Below are positions 41,422 to 48,814 of a DNA stretch of 64,000 nucleotides, piece after piece. Positions within the stretch are counted from its first letter, which is position 1. Each line of letters starts with the position of its first letter. The position numbers and the translations under genes were made by a program. This stretch comes from Natrialba chahannaoensis JCM 10990 (GTDB lineage Archaea > Halobacteriota > Halobacteria > Halobacteriales > Natrialbaceae). The DNA is taken from the NCBI RefSeq assembly GCF_000337135.1, contig NZ_AOIN01000059.1:62001-126000 (forward strand), in the 5' to 3' direction. The notes under the pieces were generated by a model that did no database searches, was not told the origin of the DNA, and saw nothing but the letters and a program-made list of their open reading frames with translations.

Positions 41422-42324
41422 TCAGTAGTGCCACGGATAGTCGTCGAACTCCGGATCGCGGCCCTCGACGAACGCGTCGCGGCCCTCCTTCGCCTCGTCG
41501 GTCATGTACCCAAGTCGGGTTGCCTCGCCGGCGAACACCTGCTGGCCGATCATGCCGTCGTCGGTCATGTTGAACGCGTATTTCAGCATCCGCATCGCCG
41601 TTGGGCTCTTCGCGTTGATGCGCTCGCCCCACTCCAGCGCCGTCTCCTCTAACTCCTCGTGGGGCACCGCCTCGTTGACCATCCCCATCTCAGCGGCCTC
41701 CTCGGCGCTGTAGGTCTTCCCGAGGAAGAACACCTCGCGGGCCTTCTTCTGACCGATCTGCTTGGCGAGGTAGGCCGAGCCGAAGCCGGCGTCGTAGCTC
41801 GCCACGTCGGGATCGGTCTGGAGAAACTTCGCGTGTTCCTCGCTCGCGAGCGTCATGTCACAGACGACGTGCAGCGAGTGACCACCGCCGACGGCCCAGC
41901 CGGGGACGACGCAGACGACGACCTTCGGAATGTGGCGAATGAGGCGCTGCACTTCGAGGATGTGGAGTCGACCCTGCTCGGATGCGCGGGCAGTCTCGTT
42001 CTCCTCGTCCTCACCCGTGTACTGGTAGCCGTCGTCGCCGCGGACCGTCTGGTCGCCGCCGGAACAGAACGCCCAGCCGCCGTCCTTCGAGGAGGGGCCG
42101 TTGCCGGTCAGCAGGATACAGCCCACGTCGGTCTGGCGCTTTGCGTGATCCAGCGCGTCGTACAGTTCGTCGACCGTCCCCGGGCGGAAGGCGTTACGAA
42201 CGTCGGGGCGGTCGAACGCGATGCGAACCGTCCCAGAGTCGACCGCGCGGTGATAGGTGAGATCACGAAAGTCGAACTCGTCGACCGGCTCCCACCGGTC
42301 TGCGTCGAAGCATTCCGAAACCAT
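41422..42324 (-). CDS. menB: 1,4-dihydroxy-2-naphthoyl-CoA synthase (MenB)
   Basis: A 300-aa crotonase-fold enzyme that cyclises o-succinylbenzoyl-CoA. Typical text: RPDVRNAFRPGTVDELYDAL, then GGWAFCSGGDQTVRG, VPGWAVGGGHSLHVVCDMTLA with the oxyanion hole, and DVASYDAGFGSAYLAKQIGQ holding the MenB-specific Tyr/Asp segment. The C-terminus ends EFDDYPWHY as in MenB proteins. It is separated from menA by the metal-related cassette (37.7-41.2 kb) and from menD by the ArsP/DnaJ segment, although all men genes share the strand. Confidence 0.94.
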   Translation of the reverse strand: MVSECFDADRWEPVDEFDFRDLTYHRAVDSGTVRIAFDRPDVRNAFRPGTVDELYDALDHAKRQTDVGCILLTGNGPSSKDGGWAFCSGGDQTVRGDDGYQYTGEDEENETARASEQGRLHILEVQRLIRHIPKVVVCVVPGWAVGGGHSLHVVCDMTLASEEHAKFLQTDPDVASYDAGFGSAYLAKQIGQKKAREVFFLGKTYSAEEAAEMGMVNEAVPHEELEETALEWGERINAKSPTAMRMLKYAFNMTDDGMIGQQVFAGEATRLGYMTDEAKEGRDAFVEGRDPEFDDYPWHY

Positions 42325-42392
42325 TGGCCGACTGTCGGGGGCGAATCCTGATATAGGTTCTCGTCGTCCAGTCTCGGAGGATCCGGTACCGG

Positions 42393-43346
42393 TTAAACGA
42401 TGAGGGTGTTGAATACGACACCAACGAGTATGCCTATTGTTACGACGGTCCCCGCGTAGACGAACAACAGCCTGCGCTTGAACAACGTATTTAGCAGAAC
42501 CAGATTTGGAATGCTGACGCCGGCACCGCCGATAACGAACGCCAACACGGTTCCAATAGCAATTCCCTGGTCGCTGAGTGCTGCTGCGATCGGTAACATT
42601 CCACTAAGACTGATATAGACAGGTGCGCCTGCCAGCGCAGCTAACGGAACCGCAAGCGGATTCTCCTGGCCAAGTACTGTATGGAGAAGTTCAACCGGGA
42701 TGACACCATGAATGAGTGCACCGATTGTCATGCCAAGAACGAGGTATGGGACCGTATCGGTGAAGAACGACCACGCTTCACGGGCCGCAGTCTCAACGCG
42801 GTTTCGGTGTGTGGTTGTCGACGTTGCTCCAGCACAGCAAGAGTTTGCTCCGCCATCCGTAGCAACTGCTTGTCCCTGTTGATCCTCGATTCGAACGTCC
42901 TTCACGTAGTCTGTAAGCCCAAGTCGTCCGATGATGAGCCCGCCAACGATTGCCGCGAGAAGCGTGAGTATGACGTACCAGACGGTGATTTCGATGCCAA
43001 ATAGTCCGAACAACAACAGGATTGCAATCCAATTAACGAGTGGCGACGCGAGCAAGAACGAAAACGCCAGTCCAAGTGGTGCACCTGCTTGAAGCAGCCC
43101 TGCCAATACAGGAACAGTCGAACAGCCACAAAACGGTGTCACCGCACCGAGACCAGCGGCGGCAACGTTGCCTGATCCCTCGTCGTAACCGCGAAGTTTC
43201 CGTTCAACTTTTTCTGGAGGAAGATACTCCTGTGCAAGCGCAACGAGGAATGATGCGCCAATGAACAATGGGACGAGGATGACAGCAAGGTAAAGAAAGT
43301 AGTTCCAGGACTCGAGGAGTGCACTGGAAAGACCCGGCGAGAGCAT
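42393..43346 (-). CDS. arsP: ArsP-type permease (DUF318 family)
   Basis: A 317-aa membrane protein with about eight helices. The ArsP/YraQ (DUF318) pattern [20 protein letters not shown] and [20 protein letters not shown] in the first half recurs as [19 protein letters not shown] in the second half. A Cys pair ([10 protein letters not shown]) lies in the central loop. Characterised ArsP proteins export trivalent organoarsenicals; other members may carry other substrates. It is the third gene of an operon that starts at the CC-repeat protein, 2 bp after the ArsR-type gene. AT-richer wording and codons than neighbours suggest transfer. Confidence 0.85.
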
Positions 43347-43348
43347 TT

Positions 43349-43732
43349 TCAGTCGTCCTCCTGGACCGCGTTGGCGAGGTCAAGGAGTTCAAAGACGGCG
43401 GTGTCAGCGATGCGGTAATAACTCCATTTCCCTTTCTTGCGGGACTTGACCAATCCTGCGTCTTTCAGTTTCCGGAGATGCGTCGCAACCGTTGATTGTG
43501 GAGCATCGAGAATTACCTGTAACTCACAGCCACAGCACTCAGATTCACGGAGCGCATTGAGAACTCGGAGTCGATCTGTATTCCCGAGGGCCTTGAAAAC
43601 GTCCACTTGGCCGGTAACGTCCTGCTCAGATGGTTTGATTTGTTGTAAGTCAGCGACTCGTTCGTCTGGATTATCGTAGAGGCGATCAAGTGCGTCGTAG
43701 GCGTCGTCCGGTGGTGATGTGTTTCCAGTCAT
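43349..43732 (-). CDS. ArsR/SmtB-family regulator
   Basis: A 127-aa regulator. The winged helix is clear: [20 protein letters not shown], then [20 protein letters not shown] and [20 protein letters not shown] and [14 protein letters not shown]. The Cys cluster ECCGCEL at the start of the DNA-binding region is a candidate metalloid or metal sensing site, like the CxC of ArsR. It sits 2 bp before the ArsP-type gene and 21 bp after the CC-repeat gene, and probably autoregulates this three-gene operon. Confidence 0.88.
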
Positions 43733-43753
43733 ATCGTGTGTTTCTGAGTTGAA

Positions 43754-44005
43754 TTATTCACAGCAACGATCCGATCCGTCGGCTCCCGATGCAGATTCTA
43801 CGTCTTCGGTTTGAGAGCCACAGCAGTCCGATCCACTATCTGATTCAGAACCTACGTCTTCGGTTTGGGGACCACAGCAATCCGATTCACCGCTCGATTC
43901 AGATCCTATTTCTTCGATATGAGGCCCACAGCAATCCGACTCACTATCTTGCTCGTAACGATTTGAAAGGCGATTCCAGAGGCGTTCGGGTAGGCTTTGA
44001 GCCAT
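43754..44005 (-). CDS. Small CC-repeat acidic protein (candidate metal/metalloid binder)
   Basis: An 83-aa protein. A helical, slightly amphipathic start (MAQSLPERLWNRLSNRYEQD) is followed by three imperfect repeats, SDCCGPHIEEIGSES, SDCCGPQTEDVGSES and SDCCGSQTEDVESAS, and a last RCCE end. It thus has four Cys pairs in an acidic Ser/Asp background and no other Cys. It is the first gene of the ArsR-ArsP-type operon, behind a clear leaderless promoter. I know no named family. A role as soft-metal or arsenic buffer or as donor to the permease is inference. Confidence 0.75.
   Translation of the reverse strand: MAQSLPERLWNRLSNRYEQDSESDCCGPHIEEIGSESSGESDCCGPQTEDVGSESDSGSDCCGSQTEDVESASGADGSDRCCE
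43800..43960. repeat. Threefold imperfect tandem repeat inside the CC-repeat gene
   Basis: DNA units containing CTTCGGTTTG then CCACAGCA(A/G)TCCGA recur about every 60 bases (around 43801, 43858 and 43913). They encode the DCCG-type repeats. The similarity at DNA level indicates recent internal duplication. Confidence 0.7.
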
Positions 44006-44312
44006 TACATCAAATTGTATTTCTACGATCTGTATAAGGCTTTGGGTAATGGGATGCCAACCAATTTGCTATGTGAAAACATGCAACACTAATTTGTAGT
44101 TAGCACCTCGTGACCTCCGTCACAGCACCGAGCTCGTCATAGATTCACTAGTATTCGCAACGCTAGGCACCCCAATTCAATATAGCACTATCTGGTTTAC
44201 TAGGTCTAAACTGAACACTGCTTCCAATCGAACAACAACAAAACAATTCAGGACAACAACACTTACCACCCAAGATATTGTTCTACTCCGATAGACGACT
44301 GGCTGATAGCCG
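44006..44312. other. AT-rich gene-free gap between divergent genes
   Basis: This gap is AT-richer than most of the window and has no plausible gene. It contains the promoter of the CC-repeat operon at its left end, a small hairpin GTGAC-ctcc-GTCAC near 44110, and presumably the DnaJ gene promoter at its right end. Confidence 0.55.
44031..44037 (-). promoter_or_regulatory. TATA-like box of the CC-repeat/ArsR/ArsP operon
   Basis: On the minus strand the sequence reads agccttataca, centred about 29 nt upstream of ATG 44005, the expected spacing for a leaderless transcript. It is the only promoter needed for the three-gene operon. Confidence 0.6.
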
Positions 44313-45311
44313 ATGGGTGAAACGTACTACGACGTGCTCGATGTCGAGCCAACCGCCACACAGGACGAACTCGAGTCCGCCTACCGCGAGCGCGTCCTCG
44401 AGACCCATCCGGATCACAACGACGCCCCCGACGCGACCGAGCAGTTCCAGCGTGTCTCGACTGCACGCGAGGTGCTAACCGACGAGGCCGAACGAGCGCA
44501 ATACGATCGCCTCGGGCACGATGCATACGCTCGCTCCCAAGATAGCGGTCCCGAAACGCAGGCAGGGTACGCGAGTACGAACGCCGCGACAACAGCAGAG
44601 CAGCAAACGAGACAGGAGACGAATCGCGGCCGCCGAGCGGGGCAGCGGCGGACTCGCGACTGGTCGTTCGAGGAGATTCGCCAGGAGGCTGAACGGGAGC
44701 AGGCGCGGTCCCAATCTGGGTCGCGGTCCAGTTCTCGGGCCGGCTCTCGGTCTCGATCCCGGTCTGGTTCCCATAGTCAGCACACGAACGACACCCAGCA
44801 CAGCAAACAGACACAGCACCAGCACGACCAGACCCGAACCACCACAGGAACAACGAGCACAGGACCTGAATCAGGAGGATCAGCAACTCAGACGGACAGT
44901 ACAGCCGACGCCGACACCAATGTCGACTTTCAGTATGCCGTCCACGACTGGAACGACGAGGTGGAACTCGAGTGGCAGGGACGAACGCTCGACCACCAGA
45001 CTGTCGTCGGGCTCGCCTGCATCTGGTTACTCTACCCGGCGTTCATCTATGCGAGCCTGACGCCGACGTTTCCAACGAGTGCCAATGCAATCGTCGCCGT
45101 CTGTACGCTCGGACTCGTCGCCTACCTGCTGACACTGCCCCGAATCGCAGCCGGCATCTTCGGTTCGTGGAGTCTGCTCGTGTCAGTTGCGCTTCTCACG
45201 ATCGAGGCGATTCCGATCGCCGTGCTGTCGATCTACGGCTTTCTCACGCTCGCGGGTGTCTGGGTGCCGTTCGGGTATGCGCTCGCCGTCTGGTGGGTGT
45301 TGCGGCCCTGA
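44313..45311 (+). CDS. DnaJ-domain membrane protein
   Basis: A 332-aa protein. Residues ~4-68 form a J domain (YYDVLDVEPTATQDELESAY, HPD motif in ETHPDHND, ending AQYDRLGHDAYARS). Residues ~75-200 are a long low-complexity linker rich in Gln, Arg, Ser and Thr (SRSRSRSGSHSQH). The last ~110 residues hold about four hydrophobic segments (GLACIWLLYPAFIYA, AIVAVCTLGLVAYLL). It therefore looks like a membrane-anchored J protein that recruits DnaK at the membrane. It is the only + strand gene in the men region and separates menD from the ArsP operon. Confidence 0.85.
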   Translation: MGETYYDVLDVEPTATQDELESAYRERVLETHPDHNDAPDATEQFQRVSTAREVLTDEAERAQYDRLGHDAYARSQDSGPETQAGYASTNAATTAEQQTRQETNRGRRAGQRRTRDWSFEEIRQEAEREQARSQSGSRSSSRAGSRSRSRSGSHSQHTNDTQHSKQTQHQHDQTRTTTGTTSTGPESGGSATQTDSTADADTNVDFQYAVHDWNDEVELEWQGRTLDHQTVVGLACIWLLYPAFIYASLTPTFPTSANAIVAVCTLGLVAYLLTLPRIAAGIFGSWSLLVSVALLTIEAIPIAVLSIYGFLTLAGVWVPFGYALAVWWVLRP

Positions 45312-45341
45312 CCCTGCACATCAGAATTCTAAAATTACGCG

Positions 45342-47192
45342 CTAGTCGTCATCTGCGCCGACCGCAGCCCGAACCGCCGCATCTAGCTCCTCGCGCCGCC
45401 GGTGGCTCGCTGCCGAGTCGAACTCGACCGAAAGCACCTGCGTTCCCTCACTCGCGAGCGACTGCCGATACGCGTCCTCGAAATCCGTCGTCGTCACGCG
45501 TTCGAACTCGAGTTCGTACAGTTCTGCGAGCGCGTCGAACTCGAGTCCGTGGGGCGTTTTGAACTGCGACGTAAACGGCGGGTCGAACTCCTCGACGGGG
45601 AGTTTGTGGAAGATTCCACCGCCGTCGTTGTCCAACAGGACGATTGTTGCGTCGACGCCGCAGCGCTCCAGTGCCAGCAGGCCGTTCGAATCGTGGTAGA
45701 ACGCGAGGTCGCCGGTGACGAGCACGAGCGGCTCGTCGGTCGCGCTGCCGGCTCCGAGTGCCGAACTCGTGATGCCGTCGATACCGCTCGCACCGCGGTT
45801 TGCGAGAACCGTGAGATCCGCTTCGCGTGGGCGACCGAAACGGTCGCCGTCCCGGATCGGCATGCTGTTCGAAACGAAAACCGTCGCCGGGTCCGGAGCC
45901 GCCTCGAAGACGGAGGTGAGGATCGCGCCCTCGAACGGCGTGGACTCGAGTGCCTCATCCGTGCACGCGTCGTCGCGGTGGGTCCAGTGGATGTGTTCGG
46001 CCTCGGCGAAGCGGGTTCGCCAGCCACTCTCGCTGGCGGCAGTGCTGGTGGTACTGGTGCTAGTTCTGGTACTGGTATCTACGAGTTCGTCGGCTAGCGT
46101 CCCGAAAACCGCACCAGGTTCGGCAGCGACCAGATCAGTGGTGGTGAACGTCGCCTCGCGCCACGCACCAGCGGGATCAAGCAGGAACTGCCGCGTATCG
46201 GCATCTCGGAGGAAGTGCCGGAGCCGTTTCGAGGTTGGTGAGGCACCGAATCTGAGGACGGCGTCAGGTGCTGGCAGTTCGTCGATGTAGCCGTCGTAGC
46301 CACCGTAGATCGGCTGCGTGTCGGAGGCAGATCCGTCAGGGGCGACGTGCGGACCAAACCGAAGATTCGAGAGTGGATCCGCGAGCACCGGCGCACCGAC
46401 CGCATCCGCGACGGCGACGACGTCGGCGGGGTCCAGCTGAGACAGTGACAGTGTCACCGGATCCGCAGGCCCCGCGACGATAAGCGGGCGCGCGGCCGAC
46501 TCAAGTACCGCCCGAAGCGAGTCGACATCGGTGGCGTTGACCGTCCCCCGCTCTAGCTCCCGTGTCTCGACGAACGCACCGTCGCGACCGCGTCCAGCAA
46601 GCGTCTCGGAGAACGCATCTGGAACGGACTCGAGTCCGTCAGTTTCGATCGGCTCGAGTGGCTTCCGGAAGGGGCAGTTGAGGTGGACGGGGCCGGGTTC
46701 GGAGACAGTCGTCTCGAGGAGCGCGCGTGCGGCGCTCGTCCGAAGACTGCGAACGGTTCGCTCGCTCGCTTCGGGAACGGGGAGTTCGGCGTGCCAGCGG
46801 ACGGCGTCACCGTAGAGGTCGAGCTGGTCGACGGTCTGATTTGCGCCGCTGTCGCGTAGCTCTGGCGGGCGGTCGGCCGTGAGTACGAGCATCGGGACGC
46901 GGGCCTGGTCGGCCTCGATGACGGCGGGATGGAAGTTCGCCGCCGCCGTGCCCGAGGTGCAGACGAGCGCCGTTGGCTCGCCGGTTCGGCGCGCGCGTCC
47001 GAGTGCGAAGAAGGCTGCCGAGCGTTCATCCAGGTGCGAGAAGACCTCAATCCCCGGGTGCTCGGCGAATGCGATGGTCAGCGGCGTCGACCGGCTCCCC
47101 GGTGCGAGACAAACCGCCTCGAGCCCGCCCGCCGCGAGTTCGTCGACGAGAATGCGACCCCAGAGCGTCGCGCGATTTGGGTGAGTCGTCAT
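45342..47192 (-). CDS. menD: SEPHCHC synthase (MenD)
   Basis: A 616-aa ThDP-dependent enzyme that adds succinic semialdehyde to isochorismate. N-terminal pyrimidine-binding domain (VCLAPGSRSTPLTIAFAEHP, LVCTSGTAAANFHPAVIEA), central domain (LSQLDPADVVAVADAVGAPV), and C-terminal diphosphate-binding domain with LVTGDLAFYHDSNGLLAL and LLDNDGGGIFHKLP. A Ser/Thr-rich insert (STRTSTSTTSTAAS) near 46030-46080 lies between the second and third domains. Its start overlaps the menF stop by 4 bp. Confidence 0.95.
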   Translation of the reverse strand: MTTHPNRATLWGRILVDELAAGGLEAVCLAPGSRSTPLTIAFAEHPGIEVFSHLDERSAAFFALGRARRTGEPTALVCTSGTAAANFHPAVIEADQARVPMLVLTADRPPELRDSGANQTVDQLDLYGDAVRWHAELPVPEASERTVRSLRTSAARALLETTVSEPGPVHLNCPFRKPLEPIETDGLESVPDAFSETLAGRGRDGAFVETRELERGTVNATDVDSLRAVLESAARPLIVAGPADPVTLSLSQLDPADVVAVADAVGAPVLADPLSNLRFGPHVAPDGSASDTQPIYGGYDGYIDELPAPDAVLRFGASPTSKRLRHFLRDADTRQFLLDPAGAWREATFTTTDLVAAEPGAVFGTLADELVDTSTRTSTSTTSTAASESGWRTRFAEAEHIHWTHRDDACTDEALESTPFEGAILTSVFEAAPDPATVFVSNSMPIRDGDRFGRPREADLTVLANRGASGIDGITSSALGAGSATDEPLVLVTGDLAFYHDSNGLLALERCGVDATIVLLDNDGGGIFHKLPVEEFDPPFTSQFKTPHGLEFDALAELYELEFERVTTTDFEDAYRQSLASEGTQVLSVEFDSAASHRRREELDAAVRAAVGADDD

Positions 47193-48814
47193 CGGGGGTA
47201 TGGTCGTTCGCCACCGGTTTCGGTGGCGGCCGAGTCAAGCTGCGTTTCGGACTGGTCCGAACTGGCTTTCTCTGGGCGCAATTCGTCCAGAATCGGCCGG
47301 AACTTGAGCTGTACTTCGTCCCACTCGTCGTGTGGATCACTGTCTGCGACGAGGCCGCTTCCGGCAAACAGCGTCACGCGTTCGTCCGTTGCGACGCCGG
47401 ATCTGAGCGCAACGGCGAACTCACCGTCGCCGTTGCCGTCGAACCAGCCGATCGGCGCAGCGTACCAGCCCCGGTCGAACGGCTCGGTTTCGTGGATCGT
47501 CTCCCAGGCCTGGTCCGGGGGCATGCCGCCAACTGCGGGCGTCGGATGCAGCGCTTCGACGAGTTCGAGCACGTGCGTCACCTCGTCGTCGAGCGTCGCC
47601 TCGATCGGCGTCCGGATGTGTTGGATGGTCGCCAGCCGGCGAATCTGCTGGTCGTCGGTCGTCAGACTGCTGGTCACCGGCGTCAACTGGTCGCGGATCG
47701 CCTCCGCGACGAGGACGTGTTCGTGCTGAACCTTCTCGCAGTCACGGAGCTGGTCGGCGAACTCCTCGTCCGCTTCAGGTGTCTCGCCACGCGGGGCAGA
47801 GCCCGCGAGCGCCTCGGTTTCGACATGCTCTCCGCGTTTCGAAACCAGTCGTTCCGGCGGCGCGCCAAAGAACGTTCCGCTGGCGTCGTGGGAGCCAGCG
47901 TGGCTGTGGTCGATCAAAAACCGATAACAGTTCGGATACCGCCGTCGCAGCCGTTCAAGCGTCGCCGGCACGTCGATCTCGGCGTCGAGCCCAACTGACA
48001 GCGACTGGGCGAGTACGACCTTCCGAAGCGTCGTCGTCTCGATGCGCTCGATCGCGTCTTCGACCTGCTCGACCCACGCCGCGCGCGAGGTCGTCCGTTC
48101 GGTGTCGGTGACGCCCGGCGGCGACCCACTCGAGCGCATCGCGGGGAAACTCGAGTCCGCCAGTCGATCGTGCCAGTCGTCTAGGCGCTGGGTTGCGGTG
48201 TCGGCGTCCAGGCTGACTGCCGTGAGCCACGTCGTCTCGTCGCTCCGGACGACGAGCACCTGCGGAACGACGAACGAGGCGGCGGTGAAGCCGTGCCACG
48301 GCGCGGTGGTGGGTGTGGCGTCTGTGGCGGAGTCCGACTCTCTATCTGTATCTGAGTCTGTAGCTGTATTGGCACTACTCTCGAACGAATCGTGAAACGA
48401 CAACCCACCGAACGCTCGCGGGCGGGCCACTGCCGGCCCGTCGTACTCGAGTGCCTCGAACGTTCGGGCGGCCTGTTCGCGAACGTCGTCGAATCGGGTC
48501 GGACCGGTTGCGGTGAATCGGGCGGCGACGCCGCGGCCGACGATCTCGAGTCCGTCGGGGGTGGCCCACTGGATGCGGGGCTCGTGGCGGGTGTGAGTGG
48601 CAGTGTCAGTGTCCGTATCGGTACCGATGTCAATATCGATATCCGCGTCCAGCAGTGCCCCAAAGGAGATGTCCGCAGCCGCGTCAGTAAGTTCGCGACT
48701 CCGACTGCAGAGGGACGATGGGATTGGGGGTGTGCGGTCGTGATCATGATCGCGATCACGATCGTGAGACGGTGCAGTTCCCGCCAGTTCCCCCTCGCCC
48801 GGCGTACGATTCAT
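47189..48814 (-). CDS. menF: Isochorismate synthase (MenF)
   Basis: A 541-aa chorismate-binding enzyme converting chorismate to isochorismate, the first committed menaquinone step. The C-terminal catalytic part shows [54 protein letters not shown] and [16 protein letters not shown]. The N-terminal third holds three low-complexity insertions ([28 protein letters not shown] and [18 protein letters not shown]) made of repeated DNA. It is cotranscribed with menD. It is longer than bacterial MenF (about 430 aa) mainly because of these inserts. Confidence 0.93.

Follow-up and report, generated by a model that had tools for sequence, protein, structure and literature searches.

What does a very small protein with paired cysteines do at the head of an operon for a regulator and a permease? 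The reverse strand of the window (the whole stretch of 64,000 nucleotides from Natrialba chahannaoensis JCM 10990 analysed here) carries such an operon: its first gene (43754-44005) encodes a small dithiol protein of 83 aa, recognised from its ORF and the family alignment, and is followed by genes for an ArsR/SmtB-type metalloregulator of 127 aa (43349-43732) and an ArsP_1 permease of 317 aa (42393-43346). The ORFs confirm these coordinates, and with them the trio of small protein, ArsR and ArsP-like permease described in an earlier reading made from the letters (the sequence-only reading). The trio is not a chance arrangement, since dozens of genomes share the small gene, in the same order and with its dithiol; the small protein is unnamed up to now.

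The inserted cassette and its predicted promoter

The trio lies in an inserted cassette (approximately 42370-44175) between menB and a gene for a DnaJ-like protein, with a GC content of 0.46-0.55 versus 0.61-0.67 in the flanks. In two congeneric genomes menB and the DnaJ-like gene are ~90 bp apart, so ~1.8 kb was inserted in the window genome (or lost in the congeners); Natrialba taiwanensis has the trio elsewhere in its genome, adjoining arsM. The cassette breaks a menaquinone gene neighbourhood (window 41422-48814), with menB before it and the DnaJ-domain gene after it, and beyond the latter there are ORFs that by eye resemble menD and isochorismate synthase.

The regulator scored 94.7 bits against NF033788 (cut-off 55) and 53.4 against PF01022 (cut-off 22), which places it in the ArsR/SmtB winged-helix family. 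Its residues 64-71 read SECCGCEL, and ECCGCEL aligns with CVCD of CadC (1u2w) and Lmo1102 (9t6t), where the classical LCVCD metal site lies; the ArsR-type regulator with ECCGCEL that had been proposed is thus borne out by the family models and the metal-site alignment.

A TATA-like TTATA (44033-44037, reverse strand) lies ~30 bp 5′ of the small gene's start codon, at about -32, and is consistent with a leaderless transcript. Between this box and the start sits an operator-like element, CAGATCGTA-GAAA-TACAATTTG (44011-44032, reverse strand; -27 to -6 relative to the start codon), which belongs to a conserved upstream motif: of 53 loci, 47 have AT[CT]G-N8-[CT][AG]AT upstream of the small gene, against 0.4 expected from shuffles, and the motif stands at -20 (mainly in type II; both types are described below) or at -24/-25 (mainly in type I). 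The element fits autorepression of a leaderless promoter by ArsR, which would bind there. Palindrome scoring was also tried as operator evidence and was rejected (means of only 5.9 vs 5.3 in shuffles); since these scores barely exceed shuffles, the operator claim rests on the conserved element at its fixed position.

The permease matched PF03773 (ArsP_1) with 196.1 bits, the gathering cut-off being 32.3, and carries TPFCGCS at residues 70-76 and SCC at residues 169-171. Its AlphaFold2 model (mean pLDDT 82) shows two halves linked by a disordered loop, with TPFCGC at a helix break; CC170-171 falls within this loop (residues 153-177), so an ArsP-like permease with a CC pair in its central loop had been read correctly. 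The CxC motif reads CGC in the window permease and CSC in nearly all relatives. The ArsP motif is C(S/T)C, preceded by tPF in cluster 2 (PMC4435449); both cysteines and TPF are present in the window permease, but the middle residue is G instead of S/T. The permease loop of type I loci also bears CC; most type II permeases are without it, so a relay through the loop is not universal and the loop is accessory at most. A fold search with the model returned nothing at E<=0.001; the best similarity, to CNT/DASS elevator transporters, was weak (elevator-type transporters are the class of ArsB; PMC13381914), and the solved structures searched gave no match. Among phage records, only permeases of 30-35% identity were found.

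The small dithiol protein as partner of the permease

The window copy of the small protein consists of an N-terminal helix, SLPERLWNRLSNRY, followed by three DCCG units and a terminal RCCE, and its eight cysteines thus form four CC pairs; with 21 D/E vs 4 K/R (pI 4.05) it is the acidic, CC-repeat protein of 83 aa that the sequence-only reading had described. The DCCG units are encoded by a 54-bp tandem repeat of 3.0 copies (TRF; 43787-43949, reverse strand). The repeat had been taken as a sign of recent growth, which does not stand: any two units share only 36-38 of 51 nt (71-75%), and the DNA therefore gives no sign of it. Among 22 type I proteins collected, extra units occur in the window copy only, and the remaining 21 have no repeats. 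The triple repeat is specific to the lineage of the window copy, and repeats are not the essence of the family, whose ordinary members carry one or two dithiols.

A first search of 100 relatives led to unrepeated homologues of 47-49 aa, and across the family members are normally 34-49 aa long: behind an N-terminal helix come one or two dithiols, as CC or in rare cases CxC, and a motif resembling I-E-E-V. There are two types, with the consensus 'xxxxLxRIWNRLxxRYxxDxxSDCCGxxIEExQS...CCE' (type I) and 'MSILDRLFG...DDSCCxVxIEEV' (type II), related to each other by profile comparison (E 3.7e-7). The window protein has the three family features, namely an N-terminal helix, CC or CxC, and a gene adjoining an ArsP_1 permease. 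The window, type II, methanogen and Cupriavidus small proteins had no Pfam or NCBIfam match above cut-off, and the type I homologues, scanned against NCBIfam only, had none there. For a 47-aa homologue, AlphaFold2 predicts a single helix (residues 2-17) and an unstructured tail (mean pLDDT 62); the type I helix is amphipathic (mean moment 0.81 vs 0.49 shuffled). At L129, the reading frame of a CxC small protein 5′ of the permease runs on into a longer C-terminal part (frame of 133 aa), which may be a fusion. A match in a congener (L005; E 0.003) was dropped, being inside a longer unrelated frame, and weak A4 matches near E 0.01, in frames of 780-1100 aa, were taken as chance.

To survey the class without bias, we started from the permease, which is present at E<=1e-60 in 64 of the 392 class genomes searched. 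The small protein is found in 57 of these 64 genomes and in 0 of the 328 permease-less ones. We compared 68 loci (67 permease regions and the window; the named haloarchaeal loci were taken from a second collection). A CC-bearing small gene lies upstream of the permease in 54 of the 67 regions and in the window; counting all versions, a small gene is present at 62 of the 68 loci (55 with CC, six with CxC at L087, L088, L116, L123, L126, and L129, and one interrupted, at L101), and none is recognisable at the other six. Conversely, small-protein profiles gave 61 matches at E<=1e-6, and 59 of them are located 25-617 bp from a permease. The other two are on separate contigs: the L138 contig was seen to end after its arsR, and the second probably ends before a permease could follow. 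The search for the repeat protein near other arsP genes, which the sequence-only reading had suggested, thus upheld the link, and the two outcomes named there as refuting it (homologues without conserved CC pairs, and loss of the permease link in other genomes) did not occur, two close cysteines being kept throughout, mostly as CC. Together these data support the small protein as a real partner of the permease. The type I gene is unlisted in annotated plasmid records that contain it, and is therefore easily missed.

A function restricted to haloarchaea is not supported, as similar proteins occur at methanogen permeases and at one Cupriavidus permease. Of 19 methanogen loci inspected, 14 have a small CC/CCC protein directly before the permease; several are surrounded by ACR3, ArsC-like, and LCVC-type ArsR genes, and the small proteins show modest similarity (E 4.4e-5). 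In a plasmid of Cupriavidus basilensis, the permease is immediately followed by a gene whose product has a helix and three CCAxRIE(E/K)V units (E 2.7e-6 against type II), a triple unit that arose independently of the window repeat. In E. coli and Pseudomonas plasmids (L135, L185) the central loop of the permease is very cysteine-rich and the neighbouring regulator ends in ECCAGVRI; in Cereibacter and Aulosira a thioredoxin-family gene stands beside the permease instead of a CC peptide. We consider it possible, and propose tentatively, that TPFC-type ArsP permeases, archaeal and bacterial, rely on a thiol feeder of their own, a role in which a CC-x2-I(E/V) peptide, a thioredoxin-family protein or a cysteine-rich loop would be interchangeable, the CC module being mobile and tripled independently in Natrialba and Cupriavidus.

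Three side observations concern these loci. The E. coli/Pseudomonas plasmid permease is mobile. Three methanogen loci (L163:2457-3797, L174, and L175) have a second, cluster-1-like ArsP (LAVCSC) behind the permease, and also a CCAAEALRR protein of ~89 aa with no Pfam or NCBIfam match. Four loci (for example, L172:3259-3564 and L165:3217-3522) contain a 101-aa protein starting KSCCC(C)G near the permease and ArsR, with no family match.

These arrangements bear on what the small protein may do. It might act as a co-sensor that delivers the arsenical to ArsR or gates the permease, and not as a carrier of cargo; this agrees with its position directly before arsR and the permease in nearly all haloarchaeal loci, and with the similar ECCAGVRI end of the plasmid regulator, but at L088, at L123 and in Cupriavidus the small gene's neighbour is the permease and not arsR, and in methanogens it directly precedes the permease, so the permease is the constant partner and we regard a signalling role as very unlikely. 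A redox role, in which the vicinal dithiol would reduce ArsR, the permease or the arsenical (e.g., As(V) to As(III)), is suggested by the thioredoxin-family genes that replace it in some bacteria; the model of the small protein shows no redox fold, however, and several islands have separate arsC-type genes, which makes a redox partner highly improbable. Alternatively, the protein could be a thiol sink, a metallothionein-like buffer of free arsenical that is merely co-expressed, without direct transfer to the permease. It is indeed small and acidic, with a mostly disordered tail, and the window and Cupriavidus copies have each tripled the dithiol unit independently, as expected if capacity counts; but most members have a low capacity of just one or two dithiols, the gene is never apart from the permease in 392 genomes, and a sink does not require the conserved helix. 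We therefore consider a sink unlikely.

Arsenic context and proposed mechanism

In the 64 permease-carrying genomes, the counts within 10 kb of the permease are 7 for arsA, 6 for arsM and 10 for ACR3 (expected 0.14, 0.17, and 0.29, respectively), although several of the linked loci come from related Halorubrum genomes, so the events are not independent and kinship inflates the counts. By locus, 22 of the 68 have arsA, arsM or ACR3 within 10 kb, and about two thirds have none. In six genomes arsM lies 88-159 bp behind the permease, and in annotated plasmids the trio is accompanied by arsM (Natrinema), ACR3, arsC-type phosphatases, arsD, arsA, HcsL, and HcsS. No ars gene adjoins the window trio (the nearest ACR3 of the same genome is ~75 kb off, on the same contig), and arsenic is therefore assigned from relatives: since these adjoin arsM, arsA/arsD, ACR3, and arsC, arsenic is the best-supported candidate substrate.

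In a Natrinema plasmid (L132:7112-8002), the arsenite methyltransferase directly behind the permease has an acidic, CC-rich N-terminal extension (GCCESS...GCCTNDE), like the tail of the small protein. Two further loci (L133:10176-10807 and L137:10457-11088) have arsA followed by HcsL (YlbF-like, ending in GGGCC) and HcsS (ending in DDDGCC), which are further CC-tailed proteins of haloarchaeal ars islands.

The same architecture could serve a soft metal ion (Cu, Zn, Cd or Hg), the small protein then being the metallochaperone of a metal-efflux permease. ArsR/SmtB proteins and dithiols are able to bind many metals, PF03773 also includes proteins named after other metals, and L003 has a heavy-metal-domain protein resembling a P-type ATPase near the trio. 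The best NCBIfam relatives of the permease include the equivalogs SO_0444 (Cu/Zn efflux; 113.6 bits) and SaoE (121.4 bits), but both scores are far under the curated cut-offs (300 and 325, respectively), and the very strong enrichment of arsA, arsM and ACR3, with arsM so close behind the permease, also speaks against a metal cargo, which we judge unlikely.

We thus favour, at about even chances, a mobile, self-regulated arsenical-efflux cassette in which a dithiol microprotein captures the arsenical and hands it over to the permease. ArsR would bind trivalent arsenic, either As(III) or, where arsM adjoins, methylarsenite, through its cysteines and would then leave the putative operator that separates the TATA box from the start codon. 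Of the three proteins, the microprotein would be made first; its N-terminal helix may dock on the membrane or on the permease, while its flexible acidic tail would grip the arsenical between two adjacent cysteines. The arsenical would then pass to the permease, to the CC of the central loop where present and then to the CxC of TPFC(S/G)C, presumably for export, and the tripled dithiols of the window copy may raise the capacity for capture. The sequence-only reading had suggested an arsenic or soft-metal buffer or donor; to this we add the permease partnership and the arsenic context, and either of these roles is still plausible.

According to a review (PMC3600143), ArsB has no part in arsenite exit from Halobacterium NRC-1, for which an unknown transporter has been proposed. 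With the small protein, a widespread family of transporters gains a partner that deserves a name; if the hand-over is true, this partner would be a minimal metalloid chaperone, 34-49 residues long, that could readily be produced and assayed.

Comparison with known systems

Among very small, cysteine-containing proteins, the haloarchaeal C(P)XCG zinc-finger micro-proteins need two C(P)XCG motifs (PMC11241148), whereas the small protein has adjacent CC pairs and no such motif. The halo-CC-star proteins HcsL and HcsS (NCBIfam names) are also short CC proteins of haloarchaeal ars islands, but their CC is at the extreme C-terminus and HcsL is a YlbF-like protein; the small protein did not match the NCBIfam models of either, and our literature search found no paper on halo-CC-star proteins. 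The thioredoxin-family protein of Cereibacter and Aulosira is likewise a small dithiol protein adjoining a TPFCSCS permease, but it has CxxC, unlike the CC peptide with its N-terminal helix.

The permease resembles ArsP cluster 2 (PMC4435449) in its PF03773 score well above cut-off, the 'tPF' before CxC and the ars-operon context of its relatives, and differs from it in having CGC instead of C(S/T)C and a central-loop CC. The defining activity of ArsP is the export of trivalent organoarsenicals, and an obligate small dithiol partner of ArsP is not described in the literature searched. The small protein has no ArsD homology (profile comparison probability 1.5%), and ArsD occurs separately, beside it in the same islands. 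The arsenite metallochaperone ArsD is nevertheless alike in its vicinal cysteines and in the proposed dithiol capture of As(III) with hand-over to an exporter, but the partner of ArsD is the ArsA ATPase, whereas that of the small protein is the permease.
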